A stretch of 21,886 nucleotides of DNA from positions 1 through 21,886 of IMG/VR virus record IMGVR_UViG_3300035680_000102, one strand, 5' to 3'. The DNA comes from a virus. Made by a program: the position numbers and the translations under genes. Under the pieces are notes generated by a model. The model saw nothing but the letters and a program-made list of their open reading frames with translations, was not told the origin of the DNA and searched no databases. Below, in pieces: positions 19,292 to 21,317 of this stretch; the stretch's first letter is position 1; every line of letters starts with the position of its first letter.

Positions 19292-19333
19292 GGTTTCATC
19301 CTTTCCTATCGCTCGGCACATCCAAGCCTCCCC

Positions 19334-19362
19334 ATTATAACCGAAGCCGTCCATTTTCGCAA
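19334..19362 (-). promoter_or_regulatory. Promoter for the signal-peptide gene
   Basis: On the minus strand TTGCGA (19362-19357), 17 bases and TATAAT (19339-19334): exact -10, four of six -35 matches. The start would be near 19327, 36 bases before the ATG. The -35 overlaps a 9-bp direct-repeat set, which could be an operator. Confidence 0.7.
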
Positions 19363-19663: not shown

Positions 19664-19720
19664 TTTTTTAACTTTTTTAAAAGACTGCTATATATATTTA
19701 TTTATAAATATATTTTATAA
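19664..19720. other. A+T-rich segment with inverted repeat, possible DNA-unwinding element
   Basis: Only five of 57 bases are G or C. It includes an inverted repeat, ATATATTTA (19692-19700) and TAAATATAT (19705-19713), around TTTA. It directly abuts the tandem arrays on its right, an arrangement typical of iteron-type replication origins. No good DnaA box was found. Confidence 0.45.
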
Positions 19721-19725
19721 CTTTT

Positions 19726-19770
19726 ACCATTACCATAACCATAACCATAACTATTACTATTACTATTACT
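19726..19770. repeat. Hexamer tandem array
   Basis: Seven consecutive six-base units plus three bases: ACCATT, three ACCATA, three ACTATT, then ACT. The units change in blocks, consistent with stepwise duplication. A reverse-complement match (TTATGGTTA, 19934-19942 approximately) lies in the RNA promoter further right. Function is unknown; an initiator-binding array is possible. Confidence 0.85.
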
Positions 19771-19771
19771 G

Positions 19772-19870
19772 CTAGATTTGCTAAGTTTTGCTAGAGTTTG
19801 CTAGAGTTTGCTAGAGTTTGCTAGAGTTTGCTTAGCAAAGCTAGCAAGTGCTAGCATTTGCTAGAAAAGC
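19772..19870. repeat. 10-bp-periodic CTAG array (iteron-like)
   Basis: Ten units, all but the first (nine bases) ten bases long, each begin CT(T)AG or CTAA. Four are identical CTAGAGTTTG (19791-19830). The flanks are variants: CTAGATTTG, CTAAGTTTTG on the left; CTTAGCAAAG, CTAGCAAGTG, CTAGCATTTG, CTAGAAAAGC on the right. TTTGC-TTA-GCAAA (19827-19839) forms an inverted centre. A 10-base period places each unit on nearly the same DNA face, as expected for cooperative binding of an initiator or for intrinsic curvature. Identity as an origin is inference. Confidence 0.85.
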
Positions 19871-19928
19871 TGAAACTCCTCCAAATGATGTATTCCACAA
19901 ATAAATGCTTCCCTTTTATAAACAAGTT

Positions 19929-19937
19929 TGTTATTAT
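19929..19937 (+). promoter_or_regulatory. Extended -10 promoter for the structured RNA
   Basis: TG-T-TATTAT matches the extended -10 form TGnTATAAT with one mismatch. The -35 area (TTCCCT, 19909-19914) is poor, as is common with extended -10 promoters. The expected start is near 19944, three bases before the first hairpin. Confidence 0.5.
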
Positions 19938-19943
19938 GGTTAC

Positions 19944-20067
19944 ATCGGTTGAAACAAGTCAACCCAATATATTTCCTCAAAACAATTTTGAAACACTTTG
20001 ACCCGAAAGGGTTAGAGGGAATATATTAAATCACCTCTCTACCCAAAGTTCAGAGGTGACTTTTTTT
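19944..20067 (+). ncRNA. Candidate structured small RNA, about 124 nt
   Basis: Three helices follow each other without gaps. Helix 1: GGTTGA (19947-19952) with TCAACC (19959-19964). Helix 2: 13 pairs, one G-U, between 19966-19978 and 20015-20027; inside it ACCC-GAAA-GGGT (20001-20012) makes a hairpin with a GNRA tetraloop, extended by G-U and U-A pairs, and AAAA-CAA-TTTT makes a weak second arm, giving a three-way junction. Helix 3: an 8-bp terminator stem with T7. A promoter fits upstream. No known RNA family was recognised. It could act as a free small RNA, an origin-linked RNA or primer, or a leader attenuator. Expression is not shown by sequence. Confidence 0.6.
20031..20067 (+). terminator. 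Intrinsic terminator of the structured RNA
   Basis: TCACCTCT (20031-20038) and AGAGGTGA (20052-20059) pair perfectly with a 13-base loop, followed by C and seven T (20061-20067). No gene precedes it on this strand for over a kilobase, which implies a short non-coding transcript. Confidence 0.9.
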
Positions 20068-20119
20068 GTTCTTTGATTCGTGAATAGAATACTTCCAGTT
20101 GATTTTAGCAAAAAGTGTA

Positions 20120-20285
20120 CTTAAAGCCTTGGGGTTCTACGTTTGAATCGGGGGCTTAAAGGAGAGATATTGCATTTGGAAGGGCTTGACGTGACAAGCT
20201 AAATCTAACGGAAGAGTAGAAGTGGAGCATCCCTTGTTTATGAGGCATGGGGTGCGATGCTTTAAGCCTTCTCTACCCCTTTTTT
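20120..20285 (+). promoter_or_regulatory. Structured leader with mutually exclusive helices (attenuator-like)
   Basis: GGCTTAAAG (20153-20161) can pair with CTTAAAGCC (20120-20128, one mismatch) or perfectly with CTTTAAGCC (20260-20268). Inside the larger helix lie hairpins GCTTG/CAAGC (20184-20188, 20195-20199) and GCATCCC/GGGGTGC (20227-20233, 20249-20255, one G-U). The latter competes with AGCATC/GATGCT. The segment ends in ACCCC and six T (20280-20285), and another stem AGCAGG/CCTGCT (20286-20291, 20315-20320) follows. This layout resembles a switch upstream of an early gene; the ligand or signal is unknown. Confidence 0.45.
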
Positions 20286-20364
20286 AGCAGGTGTTCATTA
20301 TAGTGACGTACCACCCTGCTATTGAAGGGGGTAAAGAAGATTTTAGTTACAATAAAGAAAATCG

Positions 20365-20387
20365 ATGCGAAAGTATCGCATGGAGGG
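20365..20387 (+). promoter_or_regulatory. Hairpin beside the ribosome site of the first early gene
   Basis: ATGCGA (20365-20370) pairs with TCGCAT (20376-20381) around AAGTA, ending immediately before GGAGGG (20382-20387), the ribosome site seven bases before ATG 20395. It may protect the mRNA end or position ribosomes; it could also be a DNA operator. Confidence 0.4.
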
Positions 20388-20945: not shown

Positions 20946-21317
20946 ATGAAATCTTTACTAGACACCATTTTGCTTGTGAAAGAAAATCCATCTTTCGTCG
21001 ATAACAGACGAGAACGCAGGCTAGTTGACTTTACCCCTATCGATAAGTTTGAGTTGCTTAGCCTTGAGTTGGCTGAAGGGGCTGATGCGTCCCAACACTC
21101 ACCAATAGAGTGGAATGAAGAAAATGTCCTTGAGCAGTTGAAAAGTGATTTAGACTTTGCGATCGAAAAAGCAGAAGGTCAAAGAGGTATTTCTGTTGCT
21201 TTAATGAAAGAAGTTGTTGATATGTGGCTTTTTGCTTTAGAAATTACCGCCGAAAAACCTCAACAAGGCGACGCTTATTACCTGAATTACTTTGAAGCAA
21301 TTAAGAAGTCTATTTAA
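20946..21317 (+). CDS. Hypothetical early protein
   Basis: A 123-aa acidic helical protein of unknown function. The start at 20946 is chosen because AAAGGA (20933-20938) lies seven bases before it; an in-frame ATG at 20895 has no ribosome site. The protein starts with MKSLLDTILLVKENPS, continues with the charged NRRERRLVD, and has several acidic helices, including IEWNEENVLEQLKSDLDFAI. It contains no signal peptide, transmembrane segment or known motif. It begins a tight three-gene run. Confidence 0.75.
   Translation: MKSLLDTILLVKENPSFVDNRRERRLVDFTPIDKFELLSLELAEGADASQHSPIEWNEENVLEQLKSDLDFAIEKAEGQRGISVALMKEVVDMWLFALEITAEKPQQGDAYYLNYFEAIKKSI

Follow-up and report, generated by a model that had tools for sequence, protein, structure and literature searches.

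A conserved, terminated structured RNA in the control region of a group of uncultured phages, with a possible partner in the divergent late-operon leader

Between an extended −10 and a run of seven T, the window (the whole 21,886-nucleotide stretch of the virus record analyzed here, called G000 among its relatives) holds a segment over which neither strand carries an ORF of at least 50 aa. Does this segment encode an RNA and, if it does, what might that RNA act on? An earlier note on the same DNA had read it as a stand-alone structured RNA and named replication priming, host control and packaging as candidate roles. Its parts are as follows.

19944..20067, + strand: structured RNA, about 124 nt (138 nt in G001, 142 nt in G002)
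19947..19964, + strand: P1, the 5' hairpin with loop AACAAG, nearly invariant
19966..20027, + strand: P2, a long helix almost wholly diverged in sequence that pairs in every lineage
19979..19998, + strand: one-sided bulge of about 20 nt, partly conserved (ACAA.UUU....CUUUG)
19997..20016, + strand: P3, a hairpin in which two pairs show compensatory change; the loop is GAAA in the window and UUAG in G001 and G002
20031..20067, + strand: P4, an intrinsic terminator with T7 and one C-G to G-C compensatory pair

The + strand of 19944-20067 folds with a minimum free energy (MFE) of −39.7 kcal/mol, compared with −21.6 ± 3.1 kcal/mol for dinucleotide shuffles (n = 200); the resulting z score of −5.8, with 0 of 200 shuffles as good, upholds the earlier view that the arrangement is beyond chance. 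The 6-bp hairpin described in that note is present as P1 (stem 19947-19952/19959-19964) and is separated by a single nucleotide from P2, in which 19966-19976 pair with 20017-20027. The latter helix had been put at 13 bp; the MFE structure contains 11, and a small local hairpin competes with the last two. It does close over P3, as claimed, but is better read as a long helix with a one-sided bulge of about 20 nt than as a junction. Similarly, P3 (19997-20004/20009-20016) carries the GAAA cap in the window, whereas the UUAG loops of two lineages show that a GNRA cap is not conserved; nor is a small TCAAAA/TTTTGA hairpin in the junction/bulge. An AACAAN motif occurs twice, in the P1 loop and in the bulge. 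The P4 stem (20031-20038/20052-20059) is followed by T7, an arrangement that all five RNA-bearing phages retain, in line with the terminator originally described. P4 is missing from the output of a simple terminator scan, probably because its loop exceeds the length that the scan allows.

Three features lie immediately upstream.

19929..19937, + strand: extended −10 promoter TGTTATTAT of the RNA (a consensus match only)
19921..19932, no strand assigned: palindrome AACAAGYTTGTT between −35 and −10, perfect in G001
19875..19910, + strand: conserved block just 5' of the RNA promoter, kept in three lineages

The extended −10 reported earlier is thus found, accompanied by a weak −35 (TTCCCT), and its spacing predicts a start at about 19944. 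By consensus, the promoter is conserved in all five RNA-bearing phages (5/5); together with the conserved terminator and the lack of an overlapping ORF of at least 50 aa, this agrees with the description as a stand-alone RNA. From its sequence, the palindrome is a possible repressor operator, and the block at 19875..19910 is probable regulatory DNA; in G002 this block overlaps the 3' end of a 94-codon ORF.

Searches with terminase and DNA patterns located the RNA in four other viral contigs.

G001: 36,436 bases, with identical 127-base ends; carries the RNA
G002: 40,971 bases; carries the RNA
G004: 32,576 bases; carries the RNA
G005: 26,123 bases; carries the RNA

All contigs are possibly incomplete, and those of G000 and G005 do not extend far enough for RecT to be visible. 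The RNA sequences form three lineages: G000/G004/G005 (nearly identical), G001 and G002. Further searches for homologues (RecT, integrase, the block downstream of the RNA, relaxed 15-mers) returned no additional phage with the RNA, the remaining relaxed 15-mer matches being unrelated sequences. Among GenBank phages, the region gave only a weak match to a Vibrio phage (12% of the query) and the repeat array upstream only short matches, mostly to Staphylococcus phage. In bacterial genomes, no homologue was found with the exact P1 pattern and nothing with the integrase alignment. Rfam returned 0 matches for the window at the gathering threshold and, for the window and the G002 region under permissive filters, only sub-threshold, chance-like matches, consistent with the earlier statement that no known family fits. 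The RNA is a new family, probably of a known kind, the phage regulatory RNA.

Two side observations concern other elements. The terminase large subunit of G002 (36160-38067; also L004) is interrupted in frame by about 143 aa that match Pfam Intein_splicing (PF14890, E 6e-10). Separately, a strongly conserved element of about 160 nt, with the sequence AAGCC..GGTGGGCGAAT..AGAGCCGGGCGGTTGAAACAAGTCTGGG...CACGGTAAGGC..., occurs in about 30 marine-looking viral contigs (L029-L090; e.g. L085:240-420, alignment A6). It has five two-sided compensatory pairs, no match in Rfam and only a 15-mer in common with the window RNA, and is itself a candidate new structured RNA.

The homologues fold on the same plan, with z scores of −7.0 (G001), −5.7 (G002) and −5.5 (G004). 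The clearest comparison is provided by P2: the native arms of the three lineages pair at −13.7, −17.4 and −16.6 kcal/mol, and arms swapped between lineages at only −4.2 to −4.9 kcal/mol, with one exception at −11.6. In the alignable helices, 84 of 84 cells are paired (100%, against 94.4% in shuffles), and sliding the partners by one base lowers pairing to about 42-44%. The compensatory changes that the earlier note had asked for in homologues are present as three two-sided pairs, two in P3 and one in P4. The covariation score is equalled by 7 of 500 shuffles and the count of three two-sided pairs by 91 of 500; with four distinct rows from three sequence lineages, covariation is limited and statistically modest, and the divergence of P2 with pairing retained adds strongly to it. 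P1 behaves differently from P2. Its single change, A to G in G004/G005, keeps the pair as U-G in the + strand RNA, and since P1 is nearly invariant although P2 has diverged, it must be constrained in sequence. As the part fixed in sequence, P1 probably contacts something.

The same data bear on whether the element might act as DNA, with no RNA gene at all: as a folded single strand, as protein-binding inverted repeats, or as a barrier to convergent integrase transcription. The minus-strand fold is nearly as stable (−37.1 versus −39.7 kcal/mol on the + strand), and in G001 and G002 an integrase gene converges on the element. However, T7 follows the stem on the + strand only, G-U wobbles lie on the + strand in each lineage, the P1 change is a U-G wobble on the + strand and an A-C mismatch on the other, the promoter is conserved, and the element is kept in phages without an adjacent integrase. 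An element of this type is improbable, and a conserved, + strand structured RNA is very probably real.

To the left of the RNA lies a leftward operon with genes of the TerS and TerL families, the leader of which is a predicted partner of P1.

19311..19343, − strand: promoter CGGTTATAATGG and leader hairpin GCTTGGANGTGCCGAGC of the divergent late/terminase operon

In G001, the two promoters are placed back to back, that of the late operon about 110 bases from that of the RNA. They are separated by small ORFs in G002 and, in G000, G004 and G005, by an AT-rich stretch and tandem arrays; in the window this interval (19689-19864) contains TTACCA-type repeats and GCTAGAGTTT repeats. To the right of the RNA, G001 and G002 have a tyrosine integrase (Pfam PF00589) convergent on it, and none was seen at the corresponding place in G000, G004 or G005. 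The array type of 19689-19864 follows the opposite distribution, present in the three phages without adjacent integrase but not next to the RNA in G001 or G002; perhaps it is a plasmid-like origin in place of integration. Beyond the integrase, the 3' halves of tRNA genes were recognized by eye, Val TAC in G001 (L017:13980-14030) and Arg ACG in G002 (L020:3660-3610), both upstream of the integrase and without an encoded CCA. Such halves are the usual mark of attP, and these are likely attP sites that give a handle on the host; the block downstream of the RNA had been considered as attP and was dropped once the half-tRNAs appeared on the other side of the integrase gene. With integrase and half-tRNAs, G001 and G002 look temperate; a temperate reading of the group draws in addition on a Cro/CI-type HTH protein.

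Several smaller elements also lie 3' of the RNA. A second conserved block (window 20084-20210; G001 31211-31333; G002 32922-32818) is about 80-84% identical and is also kept in phages without an adjacent integrase; its hairpin shows a two-sided change (CATTC..GAATG versus GATTC..GAATC in G004/G005), with G-U in the window. In the integrase-bearing phages, extra hairpins stand between the RNA terminator and this block (G001 L017:12580-12690, G002 L020:5066-4960), one of which has arms that differ between the two phages and are still complementary. A hairpin with core GCGAAAGTATCGC at window 20364-20380, ahead of the rightward early operon, is kept in G001 and G002.

The virion genes do not share the history of this region. 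G000, G001 and G002 have one gene set in common and G004/G005 an unrelated one, yet the control region is 96% identical between G000 and G004 and the RNA nearly identical between G000 and G004/G005: one control region on two unrelated virion sets is module exchange. The siphovirus-type terminase relatives G006 and G007, which have the second virion set, show no RNA, no RecT and no exonuclease, and the RNA co-occurs with RecT/exonuclease genes in the three of three contigs long enough to show them. As the RNA is shared across virion sets and missing from G006/G007, it follows the control/replication region rather than the packaging genes. This contradicts the packaging role suggested earlier. 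In its size, in standing alone and in lying near terminase genes, the RNA recalls the phi29 pRNA, but the terminase/portal modules found with it are of two unrelated types, one of which also occurs in phages that lack the RNA; the window terminase is of the ordinary TerS/TerL kind, and Rfam gives no match. A packaging role like that of the pRNA is extremely unlikely.

The downstream neighborhood argues similarly against a nascent RNA that acts in cis on RNA polymerase and is read on into downstream genes. Two stem-loops one nucleotide apart, right at the promoter, recall HK022 putL, which lies just downstream of its own promoter and forms two stem-loops (PMC9378689). Here, however, a strong, conserved terminator follows directly, the downstream gene in G001 and G002 is the convergent integrase, and the RNA is about 124 nt rather than 70, so that a put-like function is very improbable.

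A link to replication finds more in its favor. Transcription of the RNA, or the RNA itself, might control or prime replication, as for pO/OOP beside the lambda origin: the minimum of the cumulative GC skew lies within the RNA for G000 (20004) and G004 (15974) and no more than about 2 kb away for G001, and the AT-rich stretch and tandem arrays lie upstream in G000/G004/G005. The origin-like array of the earlier note accompanies the RNA in these three phages, but not in G001 or G002, which weakens the proposed priming role even with the RNA at or near the skew minimum. Moreover, the skew minimum also coincides with the divergence of the operons, and the predicted transcription of the RNA points away from the array and ends at the terminator. 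Overall, an origin-linked RNA is unlikely.

Control of phage or host is favored instead, and the RNA is probably a regulatory RNA of some sort. Among translation-start regions, the late-operon leader is the first or second partner of P1 in G000, G001 and G004, with a predicted duplex of UCGGU/GCCGA and CAAGU(C)/(G)GCUUG. Net energies, which allow both molecules to fold, show gains of −7.3 (G000), −6.8 (G001), −4.9 (G002), −10.4 (G004) and −2.0 kcal/mol (G005); 0%, 1%, 3.7%, 1.3% and 27%, respectively, of random 60-mers from the same genome are equally good. The pairing thus beats 96-100% of random 60-mers in four of the five phages, G005 being the exception, for a leader chosen as target after inspection of many start regions. 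The pairing is not significant when all start regions are considered: 12.5% (G000) and 80% (G001) of shuffled queries have an equally good best target somewhere. In G005, a leader change from CCGAG to CCAAA weakens the pairing and has no matching change in P1. Every phage with the RNA has a single copy of the promoter with this leader, whereas the others examined (G006/G007) have none, a distribution that linkage alone could explain. As conservation and linkage apply to P1 and the leader alike, the lineages do not test the pairing independently, and because the leader forms its own hairpin, its conservation can be explained without the RNA. The bulge and the 3' linker, used as seeds, gave no significant target. 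A complement of the P1 loop before the window gene at 20946 was set aside, as it is not kept in G001. The specific mechanism, in which P1 would pair with the late-operon leader, is thus a tentative proposal.

P1 might instead be directed at the host. A phage RNA acting in trans, as sponge, decoy or hijacker, on host mRNAs or a host RNA-binding protein through binding sites in the P1 loop and the bulge would be in keeping with the stand-alone promoter, the terminator with seven U, the invariant P1, the AACAAN motif repeated in loop and bulge, and the lack of a significant phage target over all start regions; against it, the exact P1 pattern has no homologue in bacterial genomes. We regard a host target as possible but doubtful. 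The idea of an anti-CRISPR RNA (a solitary CRISPR repeat) finds only a GTTGAAAC-like resemblance.

Our best explanation as a whole, a terminated phage regulatory RNA with P1 acting on the late-operon leader, has a probability of roughly 0.35. According to this model, a phage gene within the control region of the group, two members of which have an integrase and appear temperate, would give a short, independently transcribed and intrinsically terminated regulatory RNA. Transcription would start near 19944 from the extended −10 and stop at 20067, with a putative repressor bound at the palindrome AACAAGYTTGTT in the promoter. P2 and the terminator would serve as scaffold and stabilizer, and the invariant 5' hairpin P1 as the working end, predicted to base-pair in trans with the leader hairpin of the operon that diverges leftward and comprises the terminase genes or the late genes in full. 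This pairing may shift late-gene expression relative to the early/replication side. More tentatively still, the new family may, through pairing of hairpin and leader, link the control region on the early/replication side to the divergent late operon, and stay as a module through exchange of virion sets and gain or loss of the adjacent integrase. Comparative evidence for a conserved fold is available for few phage RNAs, and this one, from uncultured phages, is among them. It is a clear case of staying with the control region while neighboring structural genes swap, and offers a concrete, testable prediction, the pairing of P1 with the late-operon leader.

Finally, the RNA can be set beside known phage RNAs. 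The phi29 pRNA and the window RNA are alike as stand-alone structured phage RNAs in the range of about 120-170 nt; unlike the pRNA, the window RNA is tied to no single type of packaging motor. Lambda OOP is 77 nt long and antisense to cII, whereas the window RNA is antisense to no ORF of at least 50 aa, larger and more structured. OOP also is short and ends at a terminator, and it has a promoter of its own near the origin and regulatory genes (PMC12197685); the window RNA resembles it in being short, terminated and located in a control region behind its own (consensus) promoter; as for adjacency to an origin, the GC-skew minimum is near the RNA but the array is not conserved. HK022 putL forms two stem-loops just after its promoter (PMC9378689), as the window RNA is predicted to do at its 5' end; compared by description, the latter is larger and is terminated at once. 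P22 sar, of 68/69 nt, pairs with the ant mRNA (PMC12197685); compared by description and through Rfam (0 matches), the window RNA would, by the favored model, share with sar and other small phage RNAs a phage mRNA target. Like trans-acting phage RNAs generally, it combines a promoter (by consensus), a conserved fold and an intrinsic terminator.
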